A stretch of DNA of 28,915 nucleotides, from positions 1-28,915 of IMG/VR virus record IMGVR_UViG_3300006916_000264, one strand, 5' to 3'. The stretch is from a virus. The notes beneath the pieces are model-generated. The model had not been told where the DNA came from. It did no database searches and was given only the letters and a program-made list of their open reading frames with translations. Positions 15,462-26,341 of this stretch are shown piece after piece. The position numbers were made by a program, and so were the translations under genes. Every line of letters begins with the position of its first letter. Positions within the stretch are counted from its first letter, which is position 1.

Positions 15462-15935
15462 TTATGCAGTTACAATGATAAATCTACCTGGCTGATTAAC
15501 ATCACCAATAGCATATGTACTGGTGTCAATTGCAACAGCTGATTCACCTGTATTAACCCACTGTACACGATCGCCTACTGCAACCTGTGAACCTGTGCCT
15601 AGAGCGCCAATTTCAATCCAGTTAGGACTAACACGGCTTACAAAGTAAGTGCCGCTTGCACTGTCTGTTGCTGTTAGCTGGCACTCGCCTGCAGCCAGTG
15701 AGCCACTGGCTAGTGGACGAAGTGTGCATGTGCCTGTACCTTGTACAGTTGTGACACGAAAACGGTGTGTACCTTTTTGTTTTACAACTGATGTGTTTAC
15801 TGCACTACTGCCGCCATCTGCTTCAGGAATATAAGCAATCATACGAATCTGCTGACCTGTGCCGGCATCTGCACCAATTGCGCCTGTGTGAAAGTTACCA
15901 TCAACTGTTTCTGCTGTTCTTAATGGTCTACCCAT
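15462..15935 (-). CDS. Virion structural protein, 157 residues
   Basis: Starts MGRPLRTAETVDGNFHTGAI. It contains QQIRMIAYIPEADGG, GTHRFRVTTVQGTGTCTLRP, YFVSRVSPNWIEIGALGTG and GDRVQWVNTGES, an alternating beta pattern ending in QPGRFIIVTA. I recall short MGRPL-type proteins next to gp23 in marine T4-like phages, usually annotated as structural. A decoration or head/tail accessory role is an inference. It forms a one-gene transcription unit: a TATAAATA late promoter about 80 nt upstream, a leader with a CCTGG/CCAGG hairpin (15963-15977), an AGGAG-type ribosome site and a terminator downstream. The dedicated strong promoter suggests high expression. Confidence 0.75.
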   Translation of the reverse strand: MGRPLRTAETVDGNFHTGAIGADAGTGQQIRMIAYIPEADGGSSAVNTSVVKQKGTHRFRVTTVQGTGTCTLRPLASGSLAAGECQLTATDSASGTYFVSRVSPNWIEIGALGTGSQVAVGDRVQWVNTGESAVAIDTSTYAIGDVNQPGRFIIVTA

Positions 15936-16017
15936 TTGTTTTCTCCTTTCAAGAAGTCCGATCCTGGTTCTACCAGGTACGCGGTGGTGTCCGCATAAGT
16001 CTAGTTTATAGACAATG

Positions 16018-21987: not shown

Positions 21988-24084
21988 TTAAGCTACGGCC
22001 CGTTCTATTTTCTTGTTACCGTCTTCTATTGTTTGGGTCATTATTTTGAGTAATTCATTATTCTCTTTTAAAGCATATAATAAATCATTATTCCCGGTAT
22101 TTTGTTCGTTTAAGTTTTTGTCTGTCCCTGCTTTTATTGATTGAGCTAAAACACGTAAATCTTGTAAAACTTCTTGGTTAGCATCACCAAAAGTATTTTT
22201 ATTTGACAGTTCAGCTTTTGCTTCTTCCAGATTTGCTACAGGTTTAATAACTTCCATGCCATGAAATTTTATTTTTCCTACTGCACCTGACATTGGTGCA
22301 TTAATAATTCCACCGCGGGCGGCACTGCCGTCTTCTTCGGATTGGTCACTACCTGGCATCTGGCTACCCGTCCCAACGCCGCCGCGGGCAGCACTGCCGG
22401 CTGGATTGGATTGGTCACTACCCAAAAAATTAGATTTAAACCAATCCGAAATAAATTTACCTGCTTTTTCAATTCTTCTAGTAGGTTGACTTTTACCGCC
22501 TATGCCTACTGCTTGAGCAAACTTCTCCACTGCTGTTTCAAAGGTACCAGTACTACTTGATAATTCAGTAGTAAAAGTTTGCAAAGCACTAGTTAAACCA
22601 GCAGTCTTGTTCGCGATGTCTCCGAGAATTTCATTTGATGCCCCACTATTTGTTAAAGCAACGGTACCTTGTTCCAAGGCCGTTTGTGCAGCTTGACCAA
22701 AGTTTCTCAGTTCATTAGTTATTTTTTGCATACCTGAGACGTCGTCACTTAATCGTGCCATGTCTTCTCTAATTTTCGCTACGCCTTCATTTCTAAACTG
22801 GCCAACTGTATCAGCAATCTTTGGCAAACTGTCTTTAATTGTGTTAATATAAGCATTACTGTGAGCAACACCAACCATTTGTGCTGCTAATTTAGCGTTT
22901 TGTTGCATCTCTGATTGGATGCGATCATCTTTTTCCATGTTTGCAAACATCTGGCTTACGCCGTCCGCACTAGCAGCACCAGCTCGCAAGTTAGTAGTTA
23001 ATCCTTGTAAATGCCCAAAAGCAGCCTGATTCTGATCTGCGAACATTAAACCTTCTTTGCTTACAACTTGACCATGTGCTATTAACTCGCGGATTACTTG
23101 GCCTGCTGCCGGCCCAAACTTTTCAGTAGCAGTAGTTATAGATTGCAATGCTATCTGCTGCTGATCTTTGTTTAGAGTCATTATTGCTGCACGGCTATCA
23201 GCATTCATCATTTCTTGTTTCTGTAACTGTCGTTGCTGATCAATGGTTGTGCCTGTCATTTGGGATAGTGTTTTAAGTTCTCTCTGATAACTGGCCATGC
23301 CTATAACTACGTCATTTGTATTCAACTGATCTATTTTAACACCTTGCCTGGCTAACATCCCAGTGTAGTCTGCCATGGCAATTGCTTGATCTGTAATACT
23401 CATACCCATTCGCATTAGATCTTTTGAAAAATTGCTTTGTCTTAATCCATTACTAAATCTTGCAAAATCCTGACTACCTCTAAGCGTAGTACCACCAAAT
23501 TTACTTAACCCTTCGCCTGCTTTGTTGGCTACCTCTGCCAGTTGACCAAAAGTTAAACCAGACTGTCCTGCTATTTCTCCAAATTTGCCTATATCATATC
23601 CAAAACTAGCACCAGATTTTTGAGCAGTATCAAAAGCATCTACCATATTAGCAATGTGACCAGTAATAGCGCCAGCTGCTACTCCTGCAACACTACCTAA
23701 TAAAGGTATACTTTTTACAGCAGAACTAAATGCACCACCAACAGCAGTTAATCTTGAACTTAACGTGTCGCCAGAAGTACTTAAAGCCCTGCCCATGCTA
23801 GCACTAGCTGCCCGCATATTTTTACTTGCTTCGTTTGACCACCTCTGAACAGCGGCGACGCTGTTTTCCATAGCACTTGCGCTCATACCAGCAGCGTTAG
23901 CTACAGTTTTTAATGCCCCTGCTGCTTTTCCAGCAGTTGCGTTGGCATTCCTCAATCCTGTTAAATTATACCCTGCGGCTTTTCCCAGCTGTGACAGATT
24001 ATTATTAATAGCTTGAAGCGTAAACTCTTCAGCAGCATTATTAAGCGTAATGGGTTGCCCACCTAAATCTCCAGTTACAGCCAT
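21988..24084 (-). CDS. Putative tail tape-measure or baseplate-hub protein, 698 residues
   Basis: A mostly helical, Ala/Gln/Asn-rich protein with the composition of a tape measure. Residues 1-125 are helical (LQAINNNLSQLGKAAGYNLT...). A hydrophobic Gly/Ala segment at about 126-147 (IPLLGSVAGVAAGAITGHIA) could be the membrane-active part that such proteins use at injection. A long helical middle (about 150-540) includes GLTFGQLAEVANKAGEGLSK and TGTTIDQQRQLQKQEMMNAD. A flexible linker near 555-600 repeats GSDQS...GSAARGG twice, and the end (NNDLLYALKENNELLKIMTQ) is a short coiled coil. It is divergent from gp26 and gp51, which act in tail hub assembly. T4 gp29 (590 residues) is the functional analogue I would test; I do not see convincing sequence identity. 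No good ribosome site is visible. Confidence 0.6.
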   Translation of the reverse strand: MAVTGDLGGQPITLNNAAEEFTLQAINNNLSQLGKAAGYNLTGLRNANATAGKAAGALKTVANAAGMSASAMENSVAAVQRWSNEASKNMRAASASMGRALSTSGDTLSSRLTAVGGAFSSAVKSIPLLGSVAGVAAGAITGHIANMVDAFDTAQKSGASFGYDIGKFGEIAGQSGLTFGQLAEVANKAGEGLSKFGGTTLRGSQDFARFSNGLRQSNFSKDLMRMGMSITDQAIAMADYTGMLARQGVKIDQLNTNDVVIGMASYQRELKTLSQMTGTTIDQQRQLQKQEMMNADSRAAIMTLNKDQQQIALQSITTATEKFGPAAGQVIRELIAHGQVVSKEGLMFADQNQAAFGHLQGLTTNLRAGAASADGVSQMFANMEKDDRIQSEMQQNAKLAAQMVGVAHSNAYINTIKDSLPKIADTVGQFRNEGVAKIREDMARLSDDVSGMQKITNELRNFGQAAQTALEQGTVALTNSGASNEILGDIANKTAGLTSALQTFTTELSSSTGTFETAVEKFAQAVGIGGKSQPTRRIEKAGKFISDWFKSNFLGSDQSNPAGSAARGGVGTGSQMPGSDQSEEDGSAARGGIINAPMSGAVGKIKFHGMEVIKPVANLEEAKAELSNKNTFGDANQEVLQDLRVLAQSIKAGTDKNLNEQNTGNNDLLYALKENNELLKIMTQTIEDGNKKIERAVA

Positions 24085-24162: not shown

Positions 24163-25044
24163 GTGAACGAACCTGTTAATCCAAATCTAGAAGCGGCAGT
24201 GGATCCCAGACAAGCATTATCTAGATATATTAGACAACCTCAAATTTATATTACACTACCCAGTGGTGGCAAGTATTGGCCAGCTGGTAGCTTGGAAATG
24301 CCTATTAACGGTGAAATTCCCGTATTAAGTATGAGCAGTTATGATGAGCTTGTTTTAAAGACACCAGACGCACTGATGAATGGGCAGAGCGTTGTAGATA
24401 TAATACAAAGTTGTATTAGGAATATCAAGGACGCATGGGCAATGCCTGTTGTAGATTTAGATTATTGTTTAATTGCTATACGTATTGCTAGCTATGGTGA
24501 AAGCATGGGATTTACCAGCACCTGCACCGGCTGTGGTGAATGGAATGAATACAACATTGACTTAAAAAATTTTTTAAACTTGCCAGTTGATATGGCACGT
24601 TATGAAAAAATTGTAGAATATGATAACAATTTAAAGATTAAAATTAAACCTAGATCTTATAGAGACGCAAACCAGGCAAATCTGGAAGTTTTTGAACAAC
24701 AAAGAATTGTTAACATAGTCCAGGACGATAGCATGGATGAGCAGACTAAACAGCAAAAGTTTAATGAAGTTTTTAAACGTTTAACTAGTTTAAGTTTAGC
24801 AAATATAATAGGCAGCGTAGAATACATTGAGATCGATGGTACAAAAGTTACACAAAAACCTATTATTGAAGAATTTATAGCAAACACTGACCTAAAAGTG
24901 TACAGAAAAATACAAGAACACCATAACATTACACAGGAAGTTATACCAGATAAGACTGTAAAAACTACTTGCCCAGAATGTAATCATAGCTATGAAATAC
25001 CATTTACATTTGATCACGCAAATTTTTTCGCATTAGCCTCTTGA
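24163..25044 (+). CDS. 26: Baseplate hub / tail assembly protein, T4 gp26-like
   Basis: A 293-residue protein that starts with GTG 8 nt after AGGAG. It fits the T4 baseplate protein family to which gp26 belongs: a conserved front segment (PQIYITLPSGGKYWPAGSLE, VLSMSSYDELVLKTPDALMN, GQSVVDIIQSCIRNIKD), a central IAIRIASYGESM helix and a Cys cluster. Cys121/Cys124 (CTGC) and Cys270/Cys273 (CPEC) could together bind zinc. The stretch about 165-220 is charged and helical. T4 gp26 has 208 residues, so this form is longer. In T4, gp26 is needed for hub assembly, and its exact particle role is uncertain. The stop TGA overlaps the TTG start of gp51. The frameshift possibility is described under findings. 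Confidence 0.8.
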   Translation: MNEPVNPNLEAAVDPRQALSRYIRQPQIYITLPSGGKYWPAGSLEMPINGEIPVLSMSSYDELVLKTPDALMNGQSVVDIIQSCIRNIKDAWAMPVVDLDYCLIAIRIASYGESMGFTSTCTGCGEWNEYNIDLKNFLNLPVDMARYEKIVEYDNNLKIKIKPRSYRDANQANLEVFEQQRIVNIVQDDSMDEQTKQQKFNEVFKRLTSLSLANIIGSVEYIEIDGTKVTQKPIIEEFIANTDLKVYRKIQEHHNITQEVIPDKTVKTTCPECNHSYEIPFTFDHANFFALAS

Positions 25045-25259
25045 GTCAGAGCAACAACGATATTATAAAAACTCTTGAAGGCATGGATCAAGAGGCTAAA
25101 GATTACAAAAAAAGATTACTTGAACTCTGCTGGTGGATGCGGGGCGGAATTAGTTATACCGAAATGCTAGAATTAGCTGTTTCGGATGTTGCTGTTCTAA
25201 GTGATATTATTAAAAGTAATTTAGAGACTACTAAAAAAACCGGTGTTAATTTTATTTAA
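25041..25259 (+). CDS. 51: Baseplate hub assembly protein, T4 gp51-like
   Basis: A 72-residue protein whose most likely start is the TTG at 25041, which overlaps the gp26 stop (TTGA). MDQEAKDYKKRLLELCWWMR, GGISYTEMLELAVSDVAVLS and DIIKSNLETTKKTGVNFI match what I recall of gp51-like proteins in marine T4-like phages (a CWxMRGG segment, then a KKTG ending). T4 gp51 is longer (249 residues) and acts catalytically in hub assembly. An ATG at 25083 is a possible internal start. No ribosome site precedes the TTG, so translation must be by coupling or by -1 frameshifting from gp26. Its stop overlaps that of the convergent 60-codon gene. Confidence 0.7.
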   Translation: MSQSNNDIIKTLEGMDQEAKDYKKRLLELCWWMRGGISYTEMLELAVSDVAVLSDIIKSNLETTKKTGVNFI

Positions 25260-25438
25260 TCTTTTTTAATGAAATCTTTGGGGTCAAGCGTAACTTTCCC
25301 ATTCATACTATGTGGGGATTCACTTTCATGGTGAAGTTCAAGTACACTTTTCCACTCAAACTTATATCCTAAATCTTGAGCAATATTGCAAAATTCGAGA
25401 AATGCACTTTCTAATTCTACTACTTCTCTTTTGTTCAT
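25256..25438 (-). CDS. Hypothetical protein, 60 residues
   Basis: Starts MNKREVVELESAFLEFCNIA and ends TLDPKDFIKKD. A GGAG ribosome site lies 8 nt before the ATG. The sequence is acidic with a mixed helix-strand pattern and no motif I recognise. It is convergent with gp51, and the two stop codons overlap within TTAA. It lies downstream of the non-coding segment at 25439-25903. Confidence 0.65.
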   Translation of the reverse strand: MNKREVVELESAFLEFCNIAQDLGYKFEWKSVLELHHESESPHSMNGKVTLDPKDFIKKD

Positions 25439-25530
25439 AATTATATCTCCATTACCCTTAAGAGTAAGAGTATTTAATATCTGATATCACAGTTATTATA
25501 AGTTATTTTTATTATTTCTGTCAACCAGAC

Positions 25531-25590
25531 ACGGATGAACTTCGTTCATCCAAACACTCACTATCGTTCGTGTTTATTTTTTTTTGTTTT
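25531..25590 (+). terminator. Intrinsic terminator for the plus-strand gp26-gp51 unit
   Basis: A perfect 8-bp stem GGATGAAC/GTTCATCC with a 3-nt loop (25533-25551) is followed directly by a second stem AAACAC/GTGTTT (25552-25557 with 25570-25575) and a run of nine T residues (25577-25585) on the plus strand. It lies about 270 nt past the gp51 stop, beyond the convergent 60-codon gene. Confidence 0.75.
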
Positions 25591-25614
25591 GATATTCACC
25601 AGAAGTTCTAGTCA

Positions 25615-25639
25615 GACGGAACCAACTCTGGGTTCCGTC
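25615..25639. repeat. Perfect 9-bp inverted repeat in the non-coding segment
   Basis: GACGGAACC pairs with GGTTCCGTC across a 7-nt loop. No T-run follows on either strand, so it is more likely part of a folded RNA or a protein-binding site than a terminator. Confidence 0.8.
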
Positions 25640-25740
25640 GCTAAAAAGACATTCACCGTCATTATCTAGCCGAGCAGAAGTAGGTATTTGTAGCACTCCA
25701 GGGACTCTGACCTTTTCCCACCTACATCGATAAACAACGT

Positions 25741-25784
25741 AATCTTGGTGTTACATTATTAGTGATTAATGTAATACGATGATT
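25741..25784. repeat. Long imperfect hairpin in the non-coding segment
   Basis: TTACATTA (25751-25758) pairs perfectly with TAATGTAA (25767-25774) across 8 nt. The pairing continues outward with two mismatches to AATC/GATT, giving a stem of about 18 positions. Confidence 0.75.
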
Positions 25785-25903
25785 ACTTTGCTCCTGCATC
25801 CTCGTTCCCTTTGACACAGTGTTTAGGAGTATTGCCTGCAACTCGCCAGATCTAGCCGCAATTACGCTGCTTCAAGGCGTTGATTCAAGGTTGCTATGTG
25901 AGC

Positions 25904-26341
25904 CTATTTGTTTGATTCATTAATTATGTGCTGGCTTTGATGAACACGAACTCTTATGTGTCCGTTGTAGTATTCATCTGATTCCAAAACACGGTGCCTG
26001 AACTGTTCTCTTGCTTCAAGGTAACTGCACTCTGCCTTGCTGTAACAATAGTAGAGTATTTCACGCTTGAAACGTTCTGTGCCTAGTTGTTTTATGTCTG
26101 CCAATAATGCGTCTGATGAGCCGTAGTATGTTTGCCAGTCTGAGTCTACTTTTTCTCTGATACGTTTTTTCTTCTTTGTGCCATTTTTAAGTGTTACCAT
26201 ACGATACTTGGTTTTTGCAAATTTTGCAAGTTTTTTTCCAATATATTTTCTGCCTGACTCAAGATTAGTAATAATGTAGACAAAGCCCACGCAATCTTCT
26301 GGTAGTTCTAGGATAGGGGTGTCTTTGTAGTACCATGACAT
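25904..26341 (-). CDS. GIY-YIG family endonuclease
   Basis: A 145-residue nuclease of the GIY-YIG superfamily. The GIY-equivalent strand is VGFVYIITN (residues 18-26) and the YIG strand is RKYIGKKL (31-38). A basic insertion (KNGTKKKKRIREK, about 52-64) precedes SDWQTYYGSSDALLADIKQL. The probable catalytic Glu is in SYLEAREQF (E109 or E112), and the conserved Asn is in YYNGHI (N126). I recall short proteins of this type in many T4-like phages. They may be free-standing homing-type endonucleases or DNA-repair/host-DNA nucleases; the short length with no DNA-binding tail leaves this open. No ribosome site is visible before the ATG; a TATATAAT sequence just upstream could be a host-type -10 box. 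It directly precedes the structured non-coding segment. Confidence 0.88.
   Translation of the reverse strand: MSWYYKDTPILELPEDCVGFVYIITNLESGRKYIGKKLAKFAKTKYRMVTLKNGTKKKKRIREKVDSDWQTYYGSSDALLADIKQLGTERFKREILYYCYSKAECSYLEAREQFRHRVLESDEYYNGHIRVRVHQSQHIINESNK

Follow-up and report, generated by a model that had tools for sequence, protein, structure and literature searches.

The gene-free segment at 25439-25903 of the window (the whole stretch of DNA analysed, a virus record of 28,915 bases) was found to carry a structured RNA. As judged from sequence comparison, the region spanning approximately 25585-25903 on the minus strand is a diverged copy, altered at its 5' end, of a new family of structured RNAs that is previously undescribed and absent from Rfam 15; positions 25439-25580 lie outside the RNA. 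The RNA is probably a non-coding RNA carried by phages in single copy, transcribed from the minus strand and acting in trans, either alone or with a host factor. That the segment might hold a new phage ncRNA was among the options listed in the original prediction, and this option is now strongly supported by covariation among homologues. The element and its surroundings in the window are as follows:

25904-26341, minus strand: gene encoding a SegE-family GIY-YIG endonuclease, the upstream neighbour of the RNA (PF19835, E 7.1e-34)
25585-25903, minus strand: structured ncRNA, whole element, with ends deduced from conservation and the 3' end lying near X2, at about 25585-25600
25524-25495, minus strand: promoter of perfect sigma-70 consensus (TTGACA-18-TATAAT), located shortly after the RNA and ahead of a 60-aa ORF at 25256-25438
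24163-25044, plus strand: convergent T4 baseplate gene (PF12322), after which comes a 72-aa ORF

On neither strand does 25439-25903 contain an ORF reaching 60 aa, in agreement with the earlier remark that 465 bp are here devoid of a gene, and the segment was seen to abut the stop codon of the SegE-type GIY-YIG ORF, likewise as described. Upstream of this gene, a gp46/SbcC-like gene (PHROG 77) and a radical-SAM gene are found. The nested inverted repeats reported by eye were recovered at 25615-25623/25631-25639 (100%), 25735-25758/25767-25790 (83%) and 25677-25685/25720-25728 (89%), as were the direct repeats ATCTAGCCG, ATTCACC and TTCAAGG. Folding of the single sequence was only modestly better than that of shuffled versions (z -2.1 for the minus strand and -2.9 for the plus strand), such that comparison with relatives is what decides. 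When 25439-25903 was compared with Rfam 15, as had been proposed, no family was matched at the gathering cut-off and none explained the segment convincingly at E<=5, where the best result was a chance snoRNA match (E 2.4). Eight relatives of the RNA similarly yielded only chance matches at gathering and permissive thresholds. ARAGORN predicted no tRNA or tmRNA gene in the window. A survey of the open-licence literature returned no published description of this RNA.

Within the window, the nhmmer profile of the family matches 25592-25887, and covariance model R1 matches 25611-25836 on the minus strand with a score of 95.9 bits (E 1.9e-20, E-values of R1 and of the second model, R2, being rough). 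The related locus L002 shares 73.7% identity with the window over some 430 bp. Members of the family are usually about 390-430 nt in length and were detected by nhmmer at no fewer than 294 loci besides the window, nearly all in IMG/VR contigs, which are often fragments. Three pattern searches of IMG/VR converged on these loci. A pattern describing only the bare hairpin GACGGAACC-N4-12-GGTTCCGTC returned loci of which 114 of the 118 listed match one profile, and 98 of the 101 loci listed for an independent pattern taken from the 5' domain match that same profile. A third pattern, built without the hairpin, contributed 62 new loci to the 64 that carry numbers from L338 upward, every one of which matches the profile; the total of 294 is a lower bound. 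The family models detect a single copy in each phage, also in genomes as large as 382 kb; of 29 viral records considered with R1, 11 contained a match, one each. No coding signal was detected inside the RNA. An antisense ORF of 59 aa (39 cases, cluster 9) was considered and rejected, as it overlaps the 5' domain and is explained by conservation of the RNA. In three loci (L358, L364 and L391), the profile matches only the 5' end and is followed by a longer and different middle domain that is missed by R2; these possibly represent a sister class of RNA.

The fold was deduced from covariation. When 146 unique members were scanned for mutual information, long-range Watson-Crick pairs ranked at the top. 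Pairing was counted on alignments made from sequence only, with partners slid by 1-3 columns serving as control. In the core (57 sequences, 42 pairs), 91.1% of cells are paired, as opposed to 30.5-42% upon sliding, and the covariation score is 0.360, as compared to at most 0.070 upon sliding; none of 500 shuffles attains 0.360. In the 5' domain (65 sequences, 28 pairs), 95.1% of cells are paired versus 30-47% in the slid controls, with a covariation score of 0.517 versus at most 0.133. A deep alignment that includes members in which the stem of hairpin H10 is wholly different (ACGGCACTC/GGGTGCCGT, AAGACATCC/GGGTGTCTT and AAGGAACC/GGTTCCTT are examples) gave 94.3% paired cells versus 30-45%. 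In each of these alignments, the covariation among homologues that had been proposed as a check was seen by a wide margin. Those parts of the fold that could be placed in the window are listed here in the 5' to 3' direction of the RNA, together with the two repeats discussed below:

25839-25882, minus strand: clade-specific 5' domain containing a CAACGCC/GGCGAGTTG stem recognized by eye, in place of the usual H0, H1, H2 and H4
25826-25830, minus strand: 5' strand of H13, ACTCC, paired with 25695-25699 (H13a 96% paired, 4 of 4 pairs changed on both sides; among the top covariation signals)
25794-25819, minus strand: helix H6, with the conserved loop GGAACGA(A/G) at 25800-25808 (alignment A2: 7 of 7 pairs changed on both sides, 89% of cells paired)
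25738-25790, minus strand: variable hairpin H7, corresponding to the large inverted repeat first noticed (63% of cells paired in the family; length very variable)
25726-25728, minus strand: 5' strand of H14, GAT, paired with GTC at 25709-25711 and crossing H8 and H15 (95% paired, 3 of 3 pairs changed on both sides)
25720-25725, minus strand: 5' strand of H8, GTAGGT, paired with ACCTAC at 25680-25685 and crossing H13 as a pseudoknot (96.5% paired, 4 of 6 pairs changed on both sides)
25717-25719, minus strand: 5' strand of H15, GGG, paired with CCC at 25701-25703 (92.5% paired)
25695-25699, minus strand: 3' strand of H13, GGAGT, partner of ACTCC at 25826-25830
25648-25657, minus strand: X1, the first concerted direct repeat (GGTGAATGTC), placed by the rule that X1 and X2 are identical
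25615-25639, minus strand: hairpin H10, GACGGAACC-N7-GGTTCCGTC (98.8% paired; other complementary stems in divergent members)
25591-25600, minus strand: X2, the partner repeat of X1 (GGTGAATATC), close to the 3' end, placed by the same rule

Helices H13 and H8, H8 and H14, H14 and H15, and H0 and H5 cross one another, with H0, at the 5' end of the RNA, pairing with the loop of H5; the fold thus contains several pseudoknots. The pseudoknotted core also contains near-invariant unpaired nucleotides. On the strand chosen, 96 cells hold G-U as compared to 44 holding A-C, and this excess of wobble pairs and the covariation together place the RNA on the minus strand of the window. The common 5' domain is absent from the window, from L002 and from L157/L140. 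Two further pairings were considered and discarded, namely GGTCAGA/TCTGACC, because GGTC pairs locally in H14, and H12 (TGTGA/TCACA), for which the covariation signal is absent. A role for H10 as an antisense terminator was also rejected, since the T-run is not kept in the members read.

The ATTCACC repeat previously noted in the window is not a chance occurrence but one version of a family-wide concerted pair, X1 and X2, of 7 nt each, with X1 preceding and X2 following H10. The two are the same within a phage and different between phages; GGTGAAT is found in the window, and ACATGAA, ACATAAT, ACAGGAA, ACAGAAA, ACGTGAA, GCATGAA, GGATAAT, AACTTCAA and TCAGAATG are found elsewhere. Among 36 members less than 70% identical elsewhere, X1 equals X2 in 32, as compared to a mean of 9.4 and a maximum of 17 in shuffles, and in members with a minority version of X2, X1 matches in 15 of 19. 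Divergent members read by eye also obey this rule, with GGATGAA, AGCAAA, AACAAA and AGATGAG. The two repeats are separated by some 50-60 nt that include a strong hairpin. Within the RNA, no column behaves as a covarying complement of X, nor did complements of X in the flanks show consistent placement, such that neither region offers a partner for X1 and X2. Identity that persists despite drifting sequence is what would be required either by a process of copying or re-annealing or by a single shared partner. We infer that X1 and X2 would both engage the same partner in trans. The repeats offer a direct experimental handle, as their identity can be broken and then restored with another sequence. 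In the RNA of the window, CGGCTAGAT also occurs twice, at 25664-25672 and 25850-25858, with GCTGGAT occurring twice in L002; this is perhaps a second concerted repeat in the clade of the window, although it is broken in L157.

The genomic surroundings of the RNA change between lineages. In T4-like phages, the order is a gp46-like gene, a small gene, the SegE GIY-YIG gene, in some cases another small gene, the RNA, variable genes and then the convergent 72-aa and gp26-like genes. In a siphovirus-like lineage, the RNA lies near a homologue of the terminase small subunit and the large terminase gene, with a long tail-type protein encoded upstream in some. Divergent members appear in other large viral records, for example of 354 kb and 217 kb. 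The RNA is carried by at least two unrelated phage lineages with different neighbours, in addition to the divergent large records. One of the latter, a viral record of 216,704 bases (G031/L384), contains ORFs of cellular appearance when read by eye (rubrerythrin-like, porin-like, OmpA-like and tripartite-tricarboxylate-transporter-like). BLAST detected no protein family common to the siphovirus-like records and the remaining RNA-bearing records considered; several of the siphovirus-like and large records are fragments in which a shared protein could be missed. When the isolate phages of INPHARED were searched with seven subfamilies using blastn in 'distant' mode, no member was found; R1 and R2 at E<=0.1 gave no match in Melnitz, C48C1, V45v66, ACP17, HTVC202P, HTVC111P or DSL-LC06, nor did R2 in HTVC008M. 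A pattern scan of bacterial genomes gave three matches, none fitting the family profile, and the one that was read is an ordinary hairpin-T terminator. In 299 Pseudomonadota genomes considered with R2 under strict filters, the one match is a terminator behind a TonB-receptor gene. What emerges is a large RNA class of at least 294 loci in uncultured phages of aquatic type, with no counterpart in Rfam 15 or, to the extent that blastn and the models can show, in isolated phages.

Since the RNA is kept by lineages that share no detectable protein family, it most likely functions alone or with a host factor. Its source would probably be the transcript of the upstream DNA-metabolism genes, by excision or by read-through. 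The fold combines an exchangeable 5' domain with a compact core that holds several pseudoknots. This core would present the conserved H10 flanked by X1 and X2, both of which would meet the same partner in trans, and the RNA would act during infection, as is supposed for the ornate phage RNAs GOLLD and ROOL (PMC12286853). Discrete transcription, the ends of the RNA, action in trans and the partner are all parts of this model that we infer. Several observations count against it. No conserved promoter was found directly upstream of the RNA, such that part of the conservation could belong to the 3' UTR of an mRNA; the near-fixed gp46 - GIY-YIG - RNA order in T4-like phages would also suit a local role; and neither the RNA itself nor its flanks yielded a partner for X1 and X2.

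Such a local role, in which the RNA would serve the SegE GIY-YIG gene as an operon or 3'-UTR element, or would be paired with the nuclease by controlling it or being bound by it, is unlikely. In its favour, the gene terminates no more than 300 nt before the RNA, in the same orientation, in 143 of 173 loci, and the RNA begins at or near the stop codon. By contrast, no GIY-YIG gene lies within 1.5 kb in 28 of the 173 loci, siphovirus-like phages included, an intervening gene is often present, and 66 of 80 close relatives of the nuclease are without the RNA in the fetched flanks of up to 4 kb. The gene is thus a usual but inconstant neighbour outside the RNA, and the obligate nuclease-RNA pair entertained at the outset is disfavoured. 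The presence of a GIY-YIG gene is also typical of mobile introns, and, together with the compact pseudoknotted core and its near-invariant unpaired nucleotides, could point to a self-cleaving, self-splicing or recombining ribozyme, possibly an intron remnant, with X1 and X2 as reaction sites. This we regard as improbable, given that even permissive thresholds give no match to a ribozyme family, whether group I, group II or another, no interrupted gene was seen and no internal guide covaries with X1 and X2. Rfam offers no group I or II core, and the RNA is intergenic in every context read, lying between complete ORFs with changing neighbours, which speaks against the degraded intron earlier envisaged. 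The proximity of the RNA to terminase genes in the siphovirus-like phages and the direct repeats flanking a palindrome could instead fit a site for replication, packaging or recombination that acts as DNA and folds by chance, also proposed originally. This explanation is very improbable: many helices show covariation, among them pseudoknots that require a single strand, wobble pairs favour one strand, and the genomic position varies from lineage to lineage.

The most interesting alternative to a trans-acting RNA is that of a template for iterative copying, in which a host reverse transcriptase or a phage polymerase would copy the stretch from X1 to X2, with the end of the new strand, complementary to one repeat, re-annealing to the other to give a tandem-repeat product. 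We consider this rather unlikely, as we do the particular version in which a phage-encoded template directs repetitive DNA synthesis by a host (defence) reverse transcriptase or by an unrecognised phage polymerase. A template would best explain why X1 equals X2 under drift with no covarying partner in cis, as the partner would be the copy itself. Moreover, identical repeats that change together are a pattern otherwise known from the RNA templates of antiviral reverse transcriptases: DRT10 RNAs keep an A-B-A' arrangement despite variation in primary sequence, and in DRT2, copying jumps between the matching motifs ACA-1 and ACA-2 at a stem-loop (PMC12632851, PMC11100668). In these ncRNAs, of which that of DRT2 is pseudoknotted like the new RNA, the copied region is surrounded by matching repeats whose identity rather than sequence matters (PMC11100668, PMC12632851, PMC12039810), an arrangement that X1 and X2 may resemble. 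Unlike them, the new RNA is encoded by phages and has no reverse transcriptase nearby, whereas known DRT RNAs adjoin theirs; RVT_1 (PF00078) is absent from all 14 RNA-bearing phage records considered, of up to 382 kb; and the spacing of X1 and X2 is much larger than that tolerated by DRT10, in which a B of 20 nt abolished repeats. Were the RNA a template, the phage would make its own tandem-repeat DNA, or would hijack or decoy the DRT immunity of its host.

As a trans-acting RNA, the new family most recalls GOLLD and ROOL, which are also encoded by phages, and have intricate folds with multiple pseudoknots and no known protein partner; in GOLLD, moreover, conservation is stronger in the 3' region than in the 5' region (PMC12286853), as seen here. 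The new RNA differs in showing no sequence or Rfam match to either, in being about half their length or less, in not lying beside tRNA genes and in possessing the concerted X1 and X2. Pseudoknotted RNAs of this kind without a shared protein are rare, GOLLD and ROOL being examples. Structured RNAs beside nuclease genes in mobile elements are also represented by TnpB reRNA and IscB omega RNA (HEARO, RAGATH-18). Here, however, the neighbour is a GIY-YIG gene, no Rfam match exists, each genome holds one copy and the TnpB domain (PF07282) was found in none of 26 RNA-bearing records. The cyanophage RNAs manA and wcaG are likewise structured and come mainly from marine metagenomes and T4-like phages (PMC2864571), yet are regarded as cis elements that belong to metabolic genes, whereas the new RNA has neither a constant downstream gene nor an Rfam match.

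Other elements were observed in the window and its relatives. Sigma-70 promoters as perfect as that following the RNA in the window occupy the same place in L008, L009, L140 and L143. On the plus strand, 25533-25585 holds two hairpins (GGATGAAC/GTTCATCC and AACAC..GTGTT) and then a run of nine T, which by eye form a terminator for the convergent baseplate-side genes. An ORF of 698 aa on the minus strand (21988-24084) has no Pfam or PHROG match. Finally, the same record contains an Rfam match to freshwater-2 (RF02980) at 15933-16014 on the minus strand, with a score of 71.2 bits.
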